Source of the DNA: a virus
DNA: 20,322 bases
Reading direction: 5' to 3' (one strand)
IMG/VR virus record: IMGVR_UViG_3300044225_000500
Coordinates: 1 to 20,322 of that record
Positions 1,297 to 19,508 of the stretch are shown here, piece by piece (the stretch's first letter is position 1; each line of letters starts with the position of its first letter). Both the position numbers and the translations under genes were made by a program. The notes below the pieces were generated by a model. That model made no database searches. It was not told the DNA's origin and saw nothing but the letters and a program-made list of their open reading frames with translations.

Positions 1297-1974
1297 CTAT
1301 GTCCTCGGTCTTTCTGGAAGCCCCTCTCTGTAAGCGTCCGCGTTTTCTCTAGCCTCTGCCAAGTCTTTTAACCTAGATAAACTCTCTGCGAATCGAGATT
1401 CATATAAAGCAATTATATCAGGCTCACCCTTCATAAAAATATAAGCCTCTATCAAAGAGCCATACAAAAGAGAGTTTGGAGAGTTTTCACTAAGCCATGT
1501 GTACTCCGTGTCTGCCAAAGCTGTCAGACTGTTTGGCCTATAATAATAATGCAATTCAACTGTGTAATCCGCATTAGGGGTTGGCCCTAATATAAAGTTA
1601 GCATTTACAAGCCCGCTTGCAGATGTAACAGATGAGTCAAAGAAACCATAATACAGCGGCTTTCCTGTTGATGTCACATCAGGAAATGCCTCCCTCATAA
1701 AGTTGACATCCTTTTCTAAAAGGAAGCCCTCACTTCCAGAGGTCGTGATAAATAAGGAAAATGGAGCTAAAAAATCTGTGGGGGTTCTTAGATACTGGTT
1801 GCCTGTGGTCATTACACCAGTGGCGTTCTTTCTAAAGTTCTCCAGATCAACATTAGAGAATATTCTTTGTTCTGCTGCTTTTATAAAGTTTGAAAGATTA
1901 GCGACAAAGGTCGCCTCGCTGTTGTCGGTATAAGATTGAATAGCGGTTTTTAGCTCACCAAAGGTAAAAGACAT
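1297..1974 (-). CDS. Head-tail adaptor-like protein
   Basis: 225 residues. The N-terminal half has the helical pattern of phage adaptor proteins (FGELKTAIQSYTDNSEATFV, NLSNFIKAAEQRIFSNVDLE). A beta-rich middle follows, with TPTDFLAPFSLFI, GKPLYYGFFDSS and YTVELHYYYRPNSLT. It ends in a charged helix (LYESRFAESLSRLKDLAEAR). This layout matches the adaptor family that attaches beneath the portal in podoviruses such as SU10 or P22 (gp4-like). It would act in the virion neck, sealing the DNA-filled head. A second protein of nearly equal length with a related layout is encoded at 3558-4238, so the phage may stack two connector rings. Family assignment is by pattern memory and is moderately sure. 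Confidence 0.75.
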   Translation of the reverse strand: MSFTFGELKTAIQSYTDNSEATFVANLSNFIKAAEQRIFSNVDLENFRKNATGVMTTGNQYLRTPTDFLAPFSLFITTSGSEGFLLEKDVNFMREAFPDVTSTGKPLYYGFFDSSVTSASGLVNANFILGPTPNADYTVELHYYYRPNSLTALADTEYTWLSENSPNSLLYGSLIEAYIFMKGEPDIIALYESRFAESLSRLKDLAEARENADAYREGLPERPRT

Positions 1975-1978
1975 TTTA

Positions 1979-2500
1979 CTACCCTAAAGCTGTGACTGGC
2001 CCAGCACTTGCAAAAAAGCCGCCTCCAGAAACAGACCCCGTTGTTGCACCGCCAGAAACAGAAACGGTATAAGTATCATCTGATACTTTTGTTATAGAAT
2101 ACCCAGTGGACAACTCCATCACCGCCTGAGTTATGCCGTCAAATGGCTCGACAGTTCTAAACCTTACAGTATCGCCTGTGTCTCTTCCGTGATTAACTTC
2201 TGTAATCGTTATAGTTGTTGTCGCTCCACCAGAAGCACCAGTCGTAAACGGATTGTCTTGCAGAAGATTAATTACATCAGGCTCCAGCCTGTTTGGCCTT
2301 GCATTAGCAAGTGACTGACCATCAGAAACCCTCACCCTGCCAATAAAGTTTTGCGGGTGATCATGGTCAACCACATCTTTTCCAACACGCATACCTGTTC
2401 TGGTTCCGTTCTTTATTTCAAAAACAAGGTCAGATAACTTGTACCTGAACCCTGTTTTATCACATATACCATATGCGTGTTTTCCTACTGCGTTAGGCAT
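1979..2500 (-). CDS. Structural protein with Cys-containing N-terminus and a beta-rich C-terminal domain
   Basis: 173 residues in two parts. Residues 1-70 include YGICDKTGFRYKLSDL and DHDHPQNFIGR. This resembles a zinc-ribbon-like N-terminus of marine phage structural proteins, but here only one Cys is left, so metal binding is unlikely. Residues 90-173 are beta-rich, with NHGRDTGDTVRFRTVEPFDG followed by YSITKVSDDTYTVSVSGGAT. That HG-x-GD-VRF pattern recurs in phage tail proteins and is sometimes matched to an E1 FCCH-like fold. It lies between the two adaptor-like genes, which points to a neck or tail-hub part. It begins 3 nt after the stop of the LysM repeat gene. Confidence 0.7.
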   Translation of the reverse strand: MPNAVGKHAYGICDKTGFRYKLSDLVFEIKNGTRTGMRVGKDVVDHDHPQNFIGRVRVSDGQSLANARPNRLEPDVINLLQDNPFTTGASGGATTTITITEVNHGRDTGDTVRFRTVEPFDGITQAVMELSTGYSITKVSDDTYTVSVSGGATTGSVSGGGFFASAGPVTALG

Positions 2501-2503
2501 TTA

Positions 2504-3556
2504 TTAACCTGCCCTTGTAAAACGCTTGCCTCTTGTGGCTGCGCCAGTGCCGCGCATTACACCACCTTTAGACATGCCTTTTTTTCTCATCATTCCGCCT
2601 CTAGCCATGCCCTTTTTCTTCATCATTCCACCCATAGCGTAGCCCTTTTTCTTCATGGCACCGCCTTTTTTCATAACAGATGCGCGGTTAGAGGCTCTAC
2701 GAGCTTTCTTCCTAAGAGCCTCAAGGCGTTTGTTTTCAGATGATGTAACAGGCTTAGTTGTTTGACTGCTTGCTGCCCTTGCTTTCGCACTAGGCACTGG
2801 CTTTCCACGCTTTCCACCCATTGGCGTTGTCATTGGTTTTGGTGCAGAAGCAGCATCTGCGGCTCTACGCTGTTTATTGATTTCACCAAGCTGATTGAGA
2901 CGAGTCGTGACCCTAGCTCTTTTATTTGCTGTTTCAGACTGTTTTGCAGGAACTGGCTTCCCAGCTTTCTTTGCTCTTTTAGCCGCAGTATCATCAGCCA
3001 ACCCCTTCATGGACGATTTTGTCATCCCAGAGTAAACACCGCCGCGTCCCTTGCCACCAGTTGGCATCTTAATGCTTTGTCCAACGCGAATTTCATTGGC
3101 GTTTTTGATTCCGGGATTAGCAGCCATCAAAGACTTGAGAGTAAGGCCTCTTGACTTGGCAATCTGAGACAGGGTGTCTCCTGACTTAACTTTTACAGAT
3201 CCGCCTTTGGCGTAGCCCTTCTTCATCATACCGCCTTTTTTCATGCCCTTTTTCTTCATCATACCGCCAGCAGCCATTTTGCCTTTGCCGTCAGCAGCAA
3301 AGAATGGAACCTTCTTCCCATCCTTTTCAACCATCCTGAGCTTTCCGCCTTTGGACATTCCTTTTTTCTTCATGGCACCGCCCATAGCATAACCCTTCTT
3401 TTTCATCATACCGCCAGCTTTCATAGGCTTCTTTCCCATCAATTCTGATTTTTTCTTGAAAGGCATGGGGGTGAGTTTCTTTTTATTTGGTGGGACAACC
3501 TTGTCTTGGCCTTTTGGCCCGCCCTTTTGACCCAGCTTTTTAATCTTAATAGGCAT
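2504..3556 (-). CDS. Lys/Met/Gly-repeat protein with embedded LysM domain
   Basis: 350 residues and extremely basic. A LysM peptidoglycan-binding domain lies at about residues 121-164: VKVKSGDTLSQIAKSRGLTL, then AANPGI, then IRVGQSIKMP. It is flanked by low-complexity arms. Residues 46-120 and 295-335 carry repeats of the form MMKKKGYAMGG / AMKKKGMSKGG. Between them, residues 165-295 are rich in Lys, Arg, Ala and Ser. LysM suggests binding to the cell wall, either as a virion-associated entry factor or during lysis, but no catalytic domain is visible. A GGAGGG lies just before the ATG. Neighbours on both sides are connector-type genes, so I infer a virion protein. The repeat function is unknown, and DNA binding through the basic arms is equally possible. 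Confidence 0.8.
   Translation of the reverse strand: MPIKIKKLGQKGGPKGQDKVVPPNKKKLTPMPFKKKSELMGKKPMKAGGMMKKKGYAMGGAMKKKGMSKGGKLRMVEKDGKKVPFFAADGKGKMAAGGMMKKKGMKKGGMMKKGYAKGGSVKVKSGDTLSQIAKSRGLTLKSLMAANPGIKNANEIRVGQSIKMPTGGKGRGGVYSGMTKSSMKGLADDTAAKRAKKAGKPVPAKQSETANKRARVTTRLNQLGEINKQRRAADAASAPKPMTTPMGGKRGKPVPSAKARAASSQTTKPVTSSENKRLEALRKKARRASNRASVMKKGGAMKKKGYAMGGMMKKKGMARGGMMRKKGMSKGGVMRGTGAATRGKRFTRAG
2552..2674 (-). repeat. C-terminal Lys-Gly-Met repeat block
   Basis: About four tandem copies of an 11-12 residue unit in the LysM gene (residues 295-335): KKGGAMKKKGYAMGG, MMKKKGMARGG, MMRKKGMSKGG. At DNA level the plus strand shows repeated cctttttcttcatcat-like tracts. Confidence 0.85.
3197..3421 (-). 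repeat. N-terminal Lys-Gly-Met repeat block
   Basis: Residues 46-120 of the LysM gene hold about five copies of the same unit as the C-terminal block: AGGMMKKKGYAMGG, AMKKKGMSKGG, AAGGMMKKKGMKKGG, MMKKGYAKGG. A 25-residue non-repeat insert interrupts them (includes KKVPFFAADG). The unit KKKGYAMGG is identical in both blocks, so the two arms arose by duplication around the LysM domain. Confidence 0.85.
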
Positions 3557-3557
3557 A

Positions 3558-4238
3558 TTACCCTCCTAGGTAAAATGTGTCATATGGTACAAATTTTAAC
3601 GCAGAGGAATCTGTGTCCTCGTTTGCTGCCAGTTCAAACTGGAACTCATATTCCTGTTTTAGGGGGGCAACCCTATTTGCCACTTCTGGTTTCTTCATAG
3701 CTATATAATACGCTAATCCTGTCACCAAACAAGGCACAAACCTAGGGGGTACAGCCGCTGTTCCGGATATACCGGAAGTAACCCCATCTATCCCCAGAAG
3801 GTAGAAATAAGCGAGCGTATACGTTGCTGCACTGTCTGGTACAGGCCAGAGAGTAAAAGTTGTAGACGTTGCCAACCTTTGCACAAAGATCTGCGAAGGT
3901 TTGCCTTGAGCGTTTTTATTGCTTGTTTTAGCGTATGTAGATACCGAAACCCTCTGAACGTCAGTATCGACCTGATTCGTGCCAGTGCCTGTGCGAATCT
4001 GGTGTTCAATGATGTCAATAGTTCCCGTAGGCAACGTATAAGTTGCTGTGCCTGCTGTAAGAGCTTGCGTCCCAGCATTGATAGTCCACAAATTAAGTCC
4101 ACGATTTTGCCACTCCAATGTTAAAAGGTTAAAACTCCGCCTAGCGGTTTTAAGGTCATACCCAGTTTGTAATGAGAGTCCCGCTCTTTCAAACGCCTCT
4201 TCAAATATTTCTGGTAGGTCGGGTGTTACAACAGCCAT
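3558..4238 (-). CDS. P22 gp4-like head-tail adaptor / DNA stabilisation protein
   Basis: 226 residues. The N-terminus PEIFEEAFERAGLSLQTGYD and RRSFNLLTLEWQNRGLNLW is the characteristic opening of phage gp4-like adaptors. A beta-rich middle (ATYTLPTGTIDIIEHQIRTG, TFTLWPVPDSAATYTLAYFY) and a helical end (VPPRFVPCLVTGLAYYIAMK, LKQEYEFQFELAANED) follow. In P22 this protein binds the portal after packaging and keeps the DNA in the head. The ATG shares a base with the previous stop (TAATG) and has AGGAAGG upstream. It is the better gp4 match of the two adaptor-like proteins in the window. Confidence 0.82.
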   Translation of the reverse strand: MAVVTPDLPEIFEEAFERAGLSLQTGYDLKTARRSFNLLTLEWQNRGLNLWTINAGTQALTAGTATYTLPTGTIDIIEHQIRTGTGTNQVDTDVQRVSVSTYAKTSNKNAQGKPSQIFVQRLATSTTFTLWPVPDSAATYTLAYFYLLGIDGVTSGISGTAAVPPRFVPCLVTGLAYYIAMKKPEVANRVAPLKQEYEFQFELAANEDTDSSALKFVPYDTFYLGG

Positions 4239-4515: not shown

Positions 4516-5010
4516 TTACACATTAAGAGCTGCGGCTACAGAGGCTATTAAGAAAAAGAACAGACCAACAATCACTAAAATAAGAACAAAAACACCCAAA
4601 GCGGTTTTTATATTATCCTCTAGTTCTTTCTGCTTTCTTATCTTTTCTTTTCGGGCTGCTGCTGCGGCTTCTTTTGCTTCCCTTATTCTTTTAGCCCTTT
4701 CCTCGGTTATACTTTTCCAAGTTCCGTGACCAAACCTCATATCAATCATTGAGGCTATCTCCTGCATCTGCTCTTTAGCAAGTTTTGCATTAATAACCTC
4801 GGTTGCTACTGATTTTACACCAAATTGATCGGCAACACCACCAACACCTGATTTTTTACTTCTTAGCTTTTGTACCTGTTTCTCACCCTCAAATAAATTA
4901 TCTATGTAACCTGCTATATCCGAGACATCATTAGCCGTTCCGATAGCGCCTTTAATGCCATCGACTGCTGCCTTAAATAAGGATATGCCAGCGAGAGTCT
5001 CTGCGATCAT
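4516..5010 (-). CDS. Coiled-coil protein with C-terminal membrane anchor
   Basis: 164 residues. Residues 1-60 are small and amphipathic (AGISLFKAAVDGIKGAIGTA, ISDIAGYIDNL-like). Residues 100-132 are a charged Ala/Glu/Arg/Lys coiled coil (EERAKRIREAKEAAAAARKE). Residues 134-160 form one strong hydrophobic span (GVFVLILVIVGLFFFLIASV). It is therefore probably tail-anchored in the inner membrane or carried in the virion and inserted on entry. Marine phages often encode similar proteins without a function. Holin or spanin-like roles are possible, but no lysis enzyme is encoded in the window. The ATG follows directly after the stop of the preceding 56-residue gene. Confidence 0.75.
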   Translation of the reverse strand: MIAETLAGISLFKAAVDGIKGAIGTANDVSDIAGYIDNLFEGEKQVQKLRSKKSGVGGVADQFGVKSVATEVINAKLAKEQMQEIASMIDMRFGHGTWKSITEERAKRIREAKEAAAAARKEKIRKQKELEDNIKTALGVFVLILVIVGLFFFLIASVAAALNV

Positions 5011-6493: not shown

Positions 6494-6753
6494 CAGGACT
6501 TACCATTGGCCTTTTTTGCCTTTCTTGTTCTTCTAAACGATCTATTAACAGATGCTCTAACAACCTTTAGATTAGATAATCTGTTGTCCCTTGGGTTGCC
6601 ATTTTTATGGGCCACATCTTTTCCATCACCTTTAGACACTCTGCCATCAGACATCATTTTTCTTCTCGCGGCATTTCTACTAGCCCTTTTCTTTTTCTGA
6701 GATGGCTTGCTTTGGTACTTTTTGTATTCAGATGCGTAATCCCTGCGGCGCAT
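6493..6753 (-). CDS. Small HNH-like basic protein
   Basis: 86 residues. The second half, HKNGNPRDNRLSNLKVV followed by NRS, matches the end of an HNH nuclease core (H-x-N/D-G-x-x-x-D-N-R-x-x-N-L). The first half (RRDYASEYKKYQSKPSQ, then KKKRASRNAARRKMM) is a basic helix. In the usual motif a second acidic or His residue precedes the conserved His (DxHH or DVDH), and here that position reads DVAHK, so catalysis may be lost. Phages carry small proteins of this pattern, and some HNH proteins assist terminase in packaging. A nuclease or a structural DNA-binding role are both possible. The ATG overlaps the upstream stop (TAATG). Confidence 0.72.
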   Translation of the reverse strand: MRRRDYASEYKKYQSKPSQKKKRASRNAARRKMMSDGRVSKGDGKDVAHKNGNPRDNRLSNLKVVRASVNRSFRRTRKAKKANGKS

Positions 6754-7241
6754 TACTTTGCCCTTGTTCTTCCGCGCTGTGCGATTCCATCAATCGGACG
6801 TTTACGCTTAACAGAGCCACCCTTGTTCATTTTAGAAAAGGGAATTCTCTTATACGGGCCTCTTATGCCCTGTGGTGACATAGCCCCCTCTCTTGGCCCA
6901 GCGGTAACTGGTTTTTCTTTACGAAGATCAAAAGCGAGAGCTGGGGGTATTTTTTGAATTTTTACTTTACCACCACGACTCATTGTCATTGGTGTGGCTG
7001 GGGCAAACTGACCGGGATCACCCATAGGATTTTTTTTATCCATAGGCTTGGCTGCTGCTGCTGGCGCAGGCGAGGCCCCTTTCCTTTTCTTCTTTTTTAA
7101 TGCTTTAGCTGCCATCGGCCCCAGACCCATCAATCCACCGCCAATAATCCCCTTGTCTTTCATAAATTTAAGAGATGGCTTTGCTGTAAGAAGGCCCATA
7201 AACGCCTTGGTTACTGGCTTCTTTTTCATTTTTTTAGGCAT
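6753..7241 (-). CDS. Basic Lys/Pro/Gly-rich protein with GG motifs
   Basis: 162 residues from the ATG preceded by AAGGGGAATAGG. A longer frame reaching 7364 would run through the neighbouring gene and has no ribosome site. The N-terminus MPKKMKKKPVTKAFMGLLTA is followed by LKFMKDKGIIGGGLMGLGPM, a short Gly/Met-rich hydrophobic stretch, and then Lys/Ala/Pro-rich linkers. RGGKVKIQ and NKGGSVKRK repeat the double-glycine basic motif seen in two nearby genes. No recognised domain. The hydrophobic part (about residues 30-50) is too polar at its ends to call a membrane segment with confidence. Confidence 0.72.
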   Translation of the reverse strand: MPKKMKKKPVTKAFMGLLTAKPSLKFMKDKGIIGGGLMGLGPMAAKALKKKKRKGASPAPAAAAKPMDKKNPMGDPGQFAPATPMTMSRGGKVKIQKIPPALAFDLRKEKPVTAGPREGAMSPQGIRGPYKRIPFSKMNKGGSVKRKRPIDGIAQRGRTRAK

Positions 7242-7288
7242 CCTATTCCCCTTTAACTGCTTCTGCATTGAAGCTCTACTAATTGTCA

Positions 7289-7498
7289 TTACAGTAATCT
7301 CTGTAAGAATGGAGCAAGAATTACAAGACCAACAATCCACCATAGACGTTGATCTAACTTGCACATATGACCCTTATGGTCATCGAGACGCTCTTCAATG
7401 CGCTGATATCGCAGATTGCATTCGGCCTCATGCTTTGCCAGCTCTGCCATAACCTGCTCTACAGTGAGTTCCTGAACTTGTTGCTGCTCAAGTTTCAT
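7289..7498 (-). CDS. Small coiled-coil protein with C-terminal membrane segment
   Basis: 69 residues from the ATG overlapping the upstream TGA (TGATG). It begins MKLEQQQVQELTVEQVMAEL and continues through a charged helix with EAECNLRYQRIEERLDDHKG. It ends in one hydrophobic span, LWWIVGLVILAPFLQRLL. This shape resembles XhlA-type hemolysin/holin accessory proteins, in which an amphipathic helix precedes a single membrane segment. A role at the inner membrane during lysis is possible but not shown, since no endolysin is encoded in the window. Confident as a gene, uncertain in function. Confidence 0.72.
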   Translation of the reverse strand: MKLEQQQVQELTVEQVMAELAKHEAECNLRYQRIEERLDDHKGHMCKLDQRLWWIVGLVILAPFLQRLL

Positions 7499-7788
7499 CA
7501 ACATTTCCACCGTCTTCTTGCTTGCCTAAGCCTGCTATTTGGATTCTTAGCGGCCTTTGGAAATTTTTTCATTTGACCTGCTGATCTAGCGCAAAAAGAC
7601 TTGCGCCGTTTCGCAGCCTTGCTACCCGGCTTTACCTTGCCTGTGACGGCTGTTTTGAGCTTACTTCCGGGATTTGCCCGTCTGTAAGCCGCAACGCCTT
7701 TAGCGGTCATTCCCGCGCCCTTTTTAGTGGCGCGAAAATTACCAGACTTTACCGATGTTTTAATCGGTGTTTCTTTTTTCCTAGGCAT
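7498..7788 (-). CDS. DUF6321-like small basic protein
   Basis: 96 residues with blocks GNFRATKKGAGMTAKGVAAY, RRANPGSKLKTAVTGKVKPG, RRKSFCARSAGQMKKFPKAA and NSRLRQARRRWKC. I recognise this as the pattern of DUF6321, a short domain seen in marine phages including cyanophages, function unknown. It is strongly basic and contains two Cys. It starts 8 nt inside the end of the upstream structural gene, with the ATG directly within TATGCCTAG. As the first gene of the basic island after the head genes, it may be a minor virion component that contacts DNA. Confidence 0.8.
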   Translation of the reverse strand: MPRKKETPIKTSVKSGNFRATKKGAGMTAKGVAAYRRANPGSKLKTAVTGKVKPGSKAAKRRKSFCARSAGQMKKFPKAAKNPNSRLRQARRRWKC

Positions 7789-11311: not shown

Positions 11312-12236
11312 TTGAAGACTCCTTCAAGAGTTGCGCCGCATATTGTTCTGCCGTAAGGCCAAGTCTTTTGGCGAGTGAGACTTGTGTTGAGGTTAATTGC
11401 ACTCTGCGTGGTTTTTTTGCACTCCTACTTTGGGGGGCAACCACGGAACCAGTTTGACGAGCAGGTGCTTCCTCAATTTGCTCATCAAACTTGTCTGGAA
11501 ATGTTTTACGCATTGCTTCATCAATGCGCTCATAATACTGATCGCTTTTTGTGTCGATGCCTTCTTTAACAAGTTTTTCATGTACACCAAAAGCATAACC
11601 TGTCATTTCGCTGTCTTCACCAAACCAAGCGTTTTTAGTACCCCACTCTTTTGCCTTTTCATCAGGCTCAACCACTTTGGGTTTGCTTGTTACAGGCTGT
11701 GGAGCGGGTGCTTCTCGCTTTTGAGGCTTGTAAGACTCCACTCTAAACTTTTCATTTTGGAGCTTGCTAAGTTTTTCTTGAGCGTTAATTAACGCATCAG
11801 GATCTCCAGTTTCATAAGCGGCCTTGTATTCGTTTTTTGCTTTATCAAGCTCTGCGTCTACTCGGCCCTTAGCCTGCTCCACCAAAACGCCTTCGCCATC
11901 TTCCAATGCTTTGCGAAGTTTTTGGTTCTCCTCATATACCTGTTTAGCGTAGCTAACAGCCTCTTCTTGCATTTTAGAGGCTTCTTCTTTACGCCTACGC
12001 TCTTCATGGTATTCAAATTTTAACTGCTTAATGCGCTTCTGCACATTATCGCTATATTGTTCGATCTCACTGTCTTCGGGTACTTTTGGTTCAACACCCT
12101 CTGCACGGCGAGGCTTCTCCTCTTCAGGAGTATCCTCAATGATCTCTAACTCAAAACCGCTATCTTCCACTTCTTGAAAGTTATCGGTAACTTTTTCTTG
12201 CTCTTCAGCCTGAGCAACGGCTTGTGGCTCGCTCAT
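11304..12236 (-). CDS. Capsid scaffolding protein (probable)
   Basis: 310 residues, strongly acidic at the N-terminus (EVEDSGFELEIIEDTPEEEK). A long charged coiled coil spans about residues 55-170 (RIKQLKFEYHEERRRKEEAS, KLRKALEDGEGVLVEQAKGR). It ends with a basic tail (SAKKPRRVQL, then LGLTAEQYAAQLLK). Acidic, helical, with a basic C-terminal capsid-binding segment, and placed just upstream of the capsid genes: these are the usual traits of a scaffold that guides prohead assembly and then leaves. No protease domain is visible. The start overlaps the co-chaperonin stop (ATGA). Confidence 0.78.
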   Translation of the reverse strand: MSEPQAVAQAEEQEKVTDNFQEVEDSGFELEIIEDTPEEEKPRRAEGVEPKVPEDSEIEQYSDNVQKRIKQLKFEYHEERRRKEEASKMQEEAVSYAKQVYEENQKLRKALEDGEGVLVEQAKGRVDAELDKAKNEYKAAYETGDPDALINAQEKLSKLQNEKFRVESYKPQKREAPAPQPVTSKPKVVEPDEKAKEWGTKNAWFGEDSEMTGYAFGVHEKLVKEGIDTKSDQYYERIDEAMRKTFPDKFDEQIEEAPARQTGSVVAPQSRSAKKPRRVQLTSTQVSLAKRLGLTAEQYAAQLLKESSNG

Positions 12237-12601
12237 ACTCTTGAATATCCTCTTGGGTCATCGACAACAGCCTCTACTGTGTCATCATTGATAAGACGGA
12301 ACTCTTGCTTTTCGATCTTAAAACGTGTGCCGGAATAGGATCGAAAGATGACAAAGTCACCCTCTTTACAATACGGGCCATTAGGAAACTTATCTGTATC
12401 TTTATATGCGTCAGGCCCAGCTTTAACAACAAATCCTATCACTGATGCGGTTTGCTCCGCGTTCTTCAGTGCGTCTGGCATATATATGCCTGAATCTGTT
12501 TTTTCTTTGACTTCAAGTGGTTTAATCAAAAGTTTATACCCAGCGGGTACGGGTATTTTTGATGCAACATCTTTGTTGACTTCTTTGCTTGCAGAATACA
12601 T
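12233..12601 (-). CDS. groES: GroES-like co-chaperonin
   Basis: 122 residues with the whole Cpn10 layout. The strand GYKLLIKPLE is followed by the mobile loop KEKTDSGIYMPDALK, in which IYM (residues 39-41) stands for the GroEL-binding hydrophobic tripeptide. Then come VIGFVVKAGPDAY, CKEGDFVIFRSYSGT and FRLINDDTVEAVV. It has about 15 extra N-terminal residues and an insert near residues 63-78 compared with bacterial GroES. It would cap host GroEL, as T4 gp31 does for its capsid protein. It sits directly before the scaffold gene with a 4-nt overlap. AGGAGA precedes the ATG. Whether it replaces or mimics host GroES cannot be told. Confidence 0.9.
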   Translation of the reverse strand: MYSASKEVNKDVASKIPVPAGYKLLIKPLEVKEKTDSGIYMPDALKNAEQTASVIGFVVKAGPDAYKDTDKFPNGPYCKEGDFVIFRSYSGTRFKIEKQEFRLINDDTVEAVVDDPRGYSRV

Positions 12602-17796: not shown

Positions 17797-18531
17797 ATGC
17801 CTTTTTTACAAAGCAACATACCACACTTCAAATGTTGGGTGCGGCGTGAATATACATGTAATCATGTGAACTACCACGGCGAGTTTTTACACGCTATGTG
17901 TATTGCTGTGACAACAATGCCAAATCGGTGCCTGAGTTTTCAGGTTATATTCACAGGTTGTGAATCCGATGACACGGATGAGGATAATGTCCACGGCGGT
18001 GCCATGTGGGCGAGAATGCCAATAACTGCACTGGTCGGAGACACTCCGTTTGATGAATGGCCTGAGCCTATGCCAGTACACGCTGCACAGCCTTGGGACT
18101 GTATGTCTCACACCCACGCCGTTTACACATTAAACAGAGCAACACCATGTCCTTGGATTGTAAAGGTTGATGGTGAGTTCTACCCAGCTAAATATTATTT
18201 CACTGTTGATTACACTGATAGCGAGATAGCCGATGATCCGGCACAGCACAAACAAAGCCATGTTTTAGAACTGCTTGATGCTGGTGAGTGGACAGGGAAT
18301 ATAGTGGCACTACCAAACAATCGGGTAAGGGTGACACACCCAGCTTGGTTTGAAACAGGTGAAGGCGCACCAGACTTCCTGCCATCACAGCATATACACT
18401 ATTCAAAATCAGATCTTGACTATACACTTGATGTTAATCAAATATTTGATAATCTTTATGCAGAAGACGATTTAGAACAAGCTGCTAAGGAAGCATATGG
18501 GAACCTTACTTTGGGAGATGATGATGCGTGA
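17797..18531 (+). CDS. Conserved hypothetical protein, first gene of plus-strand operon
   Basis: 244 residues, starting MPFLQSNIPHFKCWVRREYT after CGGGAGACAAAG. It is rich in His, Trp, Cys and acidic residues. Blocks are FLHAMCIAVTTMPNRCLSFQ, VIFTGCESDDTDEDNVHGGA, WARMPITALVGDTPFDEWPE, TPCPWIVKVDGEFYPAKYYF and NNRVRVTHPAWFETGEGAPD. The fold looks mixed and mostly beta. I recall this protein from marine viral sequences, always without function. No enzyme motif is recognised. It is read away from the late genes, and so may be an early or accessory function. It overlaps the next gene by 8 nt. Confidence 0.8.
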   Translation: MPFLQSNIPHFKCWVRREYTCNHVNYHGEFLHAMCIAVTTMPNRCLSFQVIFTGCESDDTDEDNVHGGAMWARMPITALVGDTPFDEWPEPMPVHAAQPWDCMSHTHAVYTLNRATPCPWIVKVDGEFYPAKYYFTVDYTDSEIADDPAQHKQSHVLELLDAGEWTGNIVALPNNRVRVTHPAWFETGEGAPDFLPSQHIHYSKSDLDYTLDVNQIFDNLYAEDDLEQAAKEAYGNLTLGDDDA

Positions 18532-19235: not shown

Positions 19236-19303
19236 TTTGAAATTTTTTGAAAAAAATTTTTTACCCCCTAGGATTCCTACCCTTCTTTTCTACTGAAGGG
19301 TGG
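19236..19303. terminator. Convergent terminator candidate region
   Basis: An A/T inverted repeat (19240-19259, with T to 19262) follows the plus operon. TAGGA and TCCTA (19269-19279) flank one base. ACCCTTC (19279-19285) pairs with GAAGGGT (19295-19301) around 9 nt, and this hairpin includes the stop of the minus-strand DUF1289 gene. No single element is a textbook terminator. Confidence 0.45.
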
Positions 19304-19508
19304 GCCTCTCAATCTCCTCCCACGCCTGCCAGAGAAAAAGGGTACGGGTACGCACCACTTCCATCATCAAGACCGCCTCAGAGGGCGTTAAATCGTCCCA
19401 GATGGATATCTCCTCTATAGTTCTGTTACACCCTAGGCACAGACTATTAACTTCATCAATGGTGCAGACGCCTACACAAGGGGAGGGCTTTACTAAAATA
19501 TCTGTCAT
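19290..19508 (-). CDS. DUF1289 family protein
   Basis: 72 residues. PSPCVGVCTIDEVNSLCLGC holds the four conserved Cys (residues 11, 15, 24, 27), followed by NRTIEEISIWDDLTPSEAVL. This is the DUF1289 pattern of small proteobacterial proteins thought to bind an Fe-S cluster or zinc. In bacteria these are annotated as YdhL-like, of unknown role. It is rare to find one in a phage structural region, so it may have been acquired from the host. It lies between the small terminase and the plus-strand operon, on the minus strand, and has no close partner gene. Confidence 0.82.
   Translation of the reverse strand: MTDILVKPSPCVGVCTIDEVNSLCLGCNRTIEEISIWDDLTPSEAVLMMEVVRTRTLFLWQAWEEIERPTLQ

Follow-up and report, generated by a model that had tools for sequence, protein, structure and literature searches.

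A LysM domain as an optional head on a tagged polycationic protein encoded between two tail-adaptor genes of a short-tailed phage

Introduction

What is the role of a LysM domain that has no adjoining enzyme, is embedded in a highly cationic and mostly disordered chain, and is encoded between two tail-adaptor genes? This question is raised by one gene of the window, by which we mean the whole 20.3-kb viral record analysed here, which derives from an uncultured short-tailed phage that is probably marine. A first-pass annotation of the DNA described the gene product as a single LysM domain held between two arms of a Lys/Met/Gly-rich repeat, and proposed either a virion protein that grips peptidoglycan together with DNA or lipopolysaccharide, or a minor capsid protein.

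Genomic context of the LysM gene

On the minus strand, the relevant genes run from terminase through portal, GroES-like protein (PF00166), scaffold-like protein and capsid protein to the decoration genes; after these come a group of small cationic proteins and adaptor 1, followed by the LysM gene, a gene of the phrog_28581 family and lastly adaptor 2. The LysM gene lies within the head-tail block, between two SU10-type adaptor genes:

3558..4238 (-), adaptor 1, SU10_adaptor PF24175, upstream neighbour (E=5e-13)
2504..3556 (-), cationic LysM protein, 350 aa, charge of +80, mostly disordered
1979..2500 (-), small conserved neighbour, phrog_28581, function not assigned (E=2.3e-27)
1297..1974 (-), adaptor 2, SU10_adaptor PF24175 and phrog_2941 virion structural protein (profile match)

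The succession of TerL, portal, GroES, scaffold, capsid protein and SU10-type adaptors is that of the HTVC023P/Pam1-type short-tailed phages, and the window phage is of this type. Its capsid protein is 73% identical to that of Planktothrix phage Pag-Yong1 and 67% identical to that of Pelagibacter phage HTVC023P, and the adaptor of another relative, DSL-LC04, is annotated as Pam1-like. The HTVC023P-type pelagiphages and Pam1-type cyanophages (HTVC023P, HTVC027P, CRP-901/902, DSL-LC04 and Pag-Yong1) share with the window phage the head-tail block, the GroES-like gene, a capsid protein 56-73% identical and the cationic gene set. Unlike the window phage, HTVC023P, HTVC027P, DSL-LC04 and Pag-Yong1 yielded no LysM in genome-wide searches, and the phages of this group have no Lys-rich tagged protein between the adaptors.

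Several other genes of the window have features of their own. The phage GroES-like co-chaperonin gene (12233-12601, minus strand; PF00166) is kept beside the scaffold gene in cultured relatives. The DUF6321 protein (7498-7788, minus strand; PF19846) corresponds to a module that several PHROG families bear C-terminally on much longer proteins. Two genes upstream of adaptor 1, the product of 4516-5010 (minus strand) has a strongly hydrophobic C-terminal segment (Kyte-Doolittle mean 3.2), and 19290-19508 (minus strand) encodes a DUF1289 protein (PF06945) that is possibly host-derived. A 244-aa protein encoded on the plus strand (17797-18531) has no Pfam match; its look-alikes (MPxLQSNIPxFKxWxRREYT...) are found between tagged cationic genes and the portal gene in other marine phages, for example L062, L069, L077 and L080.

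Architecture of the protein

The 350-aa protein starts with ATG and consists of 20.6% Lys, 15.7% Gly and 9.1% Met, with a pI of 11.6 and a net charge of about +80. Its most hydrophobic 19-residue stretch has a Kyte-Doolittle mean of only 0.38, so that neither a transmembrane segment nor a signal peptide is present. A Pfam search found no enzyme domain in the protein, in agreement with the first-pass annotation, and the possibility that the LysM forms the end of an endolysin was rejected on the same ground. The following parts can be distinguished within the chain:

3200..3409 (-), N-terminal repeat arm of four MMKKKGYAMGG-type units and one insert, residues 50-119 (pLDDT < 55)
3263..3349 (-), conserved insert GGKLRMVEKDGKKVPFFAADGKGKMAAGG, residues 70-98, with a predicted beta-hairpin at 74-85
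3062..3193 (-), LysM domain, residues 122-165, predicted with its two helices and two strands (pLDDT 81-87)
2666..3019 (-), variable helical linker, residues 180-297, with cassettes swapped between relatives (19-sequence alignment, AlphaFold)
2561..2659 (-), C-terminal repeat arm of three units, residues 300-332
2507..2554 (-), C-terminal tag RGTGAATRGKRFTRAG, residues 335-350, near-invariant among slot proteins, the slot being the interval between the two adaptor genes

The LysM domain, first placed at residues 121-164, is well formed: the PF01476 match at residues 122-165 (E=2.7e-13) covers positions 2-43 of the 43-position profile and scores 50.1 bits against a curated cut-off of 20.9. In the AlphaFold model, confidence is restricted to this domain (pLDDT 81-87) and to some linker helices, while the arms and the C-terminal tag mostly stay below pLDDT 50. 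A fold search with this low-confidence full model matched mostly LysM proteins, none below E=0.001. Compared with the PF01476 family at large, the domain is full-length, high-scoring and has conserved groove loops; it differs in its surroundings, since no enzyme adjoins it, no signal peptide precedes it and disordered cationic arms lie on either side.

The repeat arms around the LysM are likewise borne out by a strict unit pattern and by shuffling. Seven MMKKKGYAMGG-type units satisfy the pattern, four before the LysM (50-60, 61-71, 99-109 and 110-119) and three after it (300-310, 311-321 and 322-332), while in 2000 residue shuffles of its sequence the pattern matches 0.10 units on average and never more than 2. 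The arms are therefore real, although the initial estimate of about five and four units is reached only by including the degenerate edge units KPMKAGG and VMKKGG. The two arms do have a unit core in common, MKKKGYAMGG, as had been noticed; its copies differ at 6 of 30 bases, all of them synonymous, which indicates that the units are old copies kept by selection rather than products of recent slippage.

Two strongly conserved parts had been overlooked. One is the insert GGKLRMVEKDGKKVPFFAADGKGKM within the first arm, which is also present in repeat proteins without LysM; the other is the C-terminal tag, with the consensus RGxGAAx[RK]GxxF. In a 19-sequence alignment, invariant columns fall mostly in the LysM and this tag. 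The dN/dS ratio is about 0.08 for the LysM (43 sequences) and about 0.07 for the tag, and its median is 0 for the VPFFAADG core motif of the insert (25 sequences), all with synonymous sites near saturation; the LysM and the tag are under purifying selection. It is thus highly improbable that the protein is a low-complexity product of slippage devoid of selected function. The strong variation in repeat number among relatives would suit such an origin, but the six synonymous changes between identical units speak against it, and dN/dS values of 0-0.08 contradict it for the LysM, the insert and the tag.

The adaptor slot in related phages

A search with the LysM protein itself retrieved 80 loci, a sample biased towards LysM, and frequencies were therefore taken from the adaptor-1 sample. 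Searches with adaptor 1 and adaptor 2, followed by inspection of the stretch that separates the two, yielded 164 loci in which both genes are present, or 63 after dereplication at 95% adaptor identity; the adaptor-1 scan alone contributes 39 dereplicated slots. Among these 39, a Lys-rich ORF is present in 35, a LysM in 20, at least two repeat units in 13, and both LysM and repeats in 8. LysM occurs with fewer than two repeats in 12 slots and repeats occur without LysM in 5, so that the two elements combine freely. The start of the LysM ranges from residue 4 to about residue 180, and the number of repeats from 0 to 9 in LysM slot proteins and up to 10 where LysM is absent.

These counts do not support the view that a LysM between two repeat arms is a conserved design. 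The combination of LysM with at least two repeats does recur in related viral genomes, yet in just 8 of 39, at no fixed position and with LysM missing from about half of the slots; homologues in which repeats are absent or variable in number, or which lack LysM, go some way against the original proposal. Because about half of the relatives manage without it, LysM is not essential to the slot. The conserved core of the slot is a Lys-rich disordered body followed by a C-terminal tag, and LysM is a common but optional head on this cationic carrier.

In six relatives (L115, L140, L143, L146, L147 and L154), a LysM ORF of 117-143 aa is directly followed by a separate cationic ORF that bears the tag at its C-terminus, and the window protein accordingly looks like a fusion of these partners. 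The existence of two genes in some relatives and of one chain in others suggests, at the level of gene organisation, that the LysM and the tagged cationic part work together. Another conserved module, LPxxVRNKMGYMxxGG, is found in the tagged cationic slot proteins of these six loci and of L105.

The arrangement is common among IMG/VR relatives and is therefore no curiosity of one contig. None of the cultured phage records searched shows it: tblastn against phage records returned LysM similarity alone. A text search of papers on HTVC023P-type, Pam1-type and PhiGT1 phages gave no mention of LysM or lysine-rich proteins, and searches of an incompletely covered literature for Lys/Gly-rich phage virion proteins returned nothing relevant. 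A weak match links the C-terminal repeat region to phrog_27899 (109 aa; E=0.002), an uncharacterised family that, unlike the slot protein, has no LysM. A bacterial origin of the whole arrangement was considered and rejected, as a family-alignment scan of genome contigs matched little beyond LysM.

Two C-terminal tags on cationic proteins

Across the 39 dereplicated slots, 32 of the 35 Lys-rich proteins end in the tag (pattern RGxGxAx(x)G), compared with 0.09% of shuffles. The full motif RGxGAAx[RK]GxxF is C-terminal in 175 of its 176 occurrences among Lys-rich ORFs and is absent from 9472 other ORFs. Beyond the adaptor slot, tagged cationic ORFs adjoin portal, terminase or adaptor genes; in the cultured phage HTVC023P the tag is borne by gp51 and by gp32, which comes directly after the portal-like ORF gp31. 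A tblastn search with the tag peptide by itself returned no match, probably owing to low-complexity filtering. Lys-rich ORFs contain a second tag, DGxAx[RK]G[KR]TR, 94 times, 92 of them at the C-terminus, and two of the other ORFs also carry it. This second tag stays near capsid-decoration genes, while the first tag stays near adaptor, portal and terminase genes. In the window, the second tag ends a cationic protein encoded at 6753-7364 on the minus strand (RPIDGIAQRGRTRAK), and among related loci it turns up in 92 Lys-rich ORFs, mostly in the vicinity of decoration genes.

This division bears on the possibility that the LysM protein is a histone-like internal protein, packaged in many copies to condense DNA in the capsid, with the LysM as a passenger. 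A charge of about +80, disordered Lys/Gly/Met-rich arms and the cluster of other small proteins with pI above 10 in the same block would all fit such a protein. However, it is a different tag (DGxAx[RK]GxTR) that marks the capsid-gene side, the slot tag keeping to adaptor and portal neighbourhoods, and charge alone leaves the conserved LysM and tag unexplained, which makes this role unlikely.

Peptidoglycan, lysis and assembly

The closest solved relatives of the LysM domain (Ecp6, LytE, SafA and a cell-wall endopeptidase) bind chitin or peptidoglycan. In known complexes of LysM with glycans, the sugar site is lined by the loops that correspond to SGDTL and NPxIKNANxI, and in the 19-sequence alignment the residues of these two loops are nearly all invariant. 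Both features count against a purely structural LysM, one that would serve as a protein-protein module in neck or tail assembly, as in contractile-tail baseplates, and would never contact peptidoglycan. The adaptor-gene neighbourhood, the LysM-containing baseplate hub families in PHROGs (e.g., phrog_46) and the optional nature of the domain, which suits an assembly accessory, lend this idea some appeal, but the place of the LysM in the chain varies widely, which would be unusual for a fixed structural contact, and we consider the idea improbable.

LysM is also typical of phage endolysins, such as phi29 gp15 and gp43 of Roseobacter phage CRP-207, in which it accompanies an endolysin-like domain. 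The slot protein shares the LysM with these enzymes and differs in having no catalytic domain, in the position of its gene among adaptors and in the presence of a separate PF00959 lysozyme in a near-complete relative; its endolysin PHROG matches overlap just the LysM and the adjoining low-complexity region. In that relative (G008, 59.8 kb), the lysozyme, which has no LysM, its holin-like neighbour and a 3115-aa LPD38 protein all lie far from the slot. LysM was found in 5 of 12 related genomes checked (G008 and four others), in one copy each, at the slot gene. A lysozyme without its own binding domain could make a peptidoglycan-binding helper useful, and the protein might then be a non-virion accessory of lysis that binds peptidoglycan late, its cationic arms disturbing the envelope or aiding the lysozyme. 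Yet the gene is embedded among adaptors, about 17 kb away from the lysozyme gene of G008 and its holin-like neighbour, the product would be holin-dependent for want of a signal peptide or transmembrane segment, and the carrier and tag are retained where LysM is absent. A role in lysis thus appears unlikely.

A candidate component of the portal-tail channel

A protein of the virion in contact with both DNA and peptidoglycan, as first proposed, is compatible with all findings, including the position of the gene between two tail-adaptor genes; that position favours a role in the portal-tail channel over one as a minor capsid protein. The closest parallel is T7 gp7.3, in which residues 1-83, mostly positive, surround the channel DNA, while the C-terminal loop (84-98) attaches to the nozzle where this meets the adaptor; gp7.3 is ejected at infection (PMC11784390). 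Both proteins combine a disordered cationic body with a short C-terminal segment, which is a conserved tag in the slot protein, where the plan is on a larger scale. Both are encoded by morphogenesis genes beside portal or adaptor genes; gp7.3 docks at the adaptor/nozzle and leaves at the start of infection, as the slot protein may do. They differ in length (99 versus 350 aa), and gp7.3 has no repeat arms, LysM or VPFFAADG insert. No profile match indicates homology to gp7.3, and comparison of the C-termini by eye gave no convincing alignment.

By analogy with gp7.3 and from gene position, the slot protein may be a minor component of the virion, situated in the portal-tail channel, whose optional head binds peptidoglycan and is delivered to the periplasm at ejection; we put the chances of this reading at about even. 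What we infer in it is that the protein belongs to the virion, sits in the channel, touches DNA, is ejected and binds peptidoglycan. The Lys-rich disordered repeat arms would lie along the DNA end inside the channel, and the tag RGxGAAx[RK]GxxF would attach the protein to a component of the channel where adaptor and nozzle meet, like the C-terminal loop of gp7.3. On adsorption, the slot protein would be the first to exit, before the DNA; its LysM could then bind peptidoglycan glycan strands, anchoring the protein, or the ejection conduit that it touches, at the cell wall. Against such a location stands the size of the slot protein, which is 3.5 times longer than gp7.3: a folded LysM and 350 residues at 6-12 copies would crowd the tail channel. 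In addition, several further cationic proteins are encoded close by, and the neutralisation of DNA would not be special to the slot protein.

A broader and more doubtful proposal is that the two C-terminal tags constitute a general docking code in marine short-tailed phages, one portal/adaptor-side and the other capsid-decoration-side, placing disordered polycationic proteins on defined virion sites. The carrier of the adaptor slot would then swap heads, LysM among them, that prepare the host envelope for DNA entry.

Implications

Little is understood of how the cell wall of abundant marine bacteria is crossed by their short-tailed phages, and the conserved, tagged cationic carrier with its optional head, which would bind peptidoglycan, is a concrete and testable candidate for the first molecule that leaves the tail. 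The tag also offers a way to spot proteins of this sort in cultured pelagiphages, HTVC023P for one, where they are at present annotated as hypothetical.
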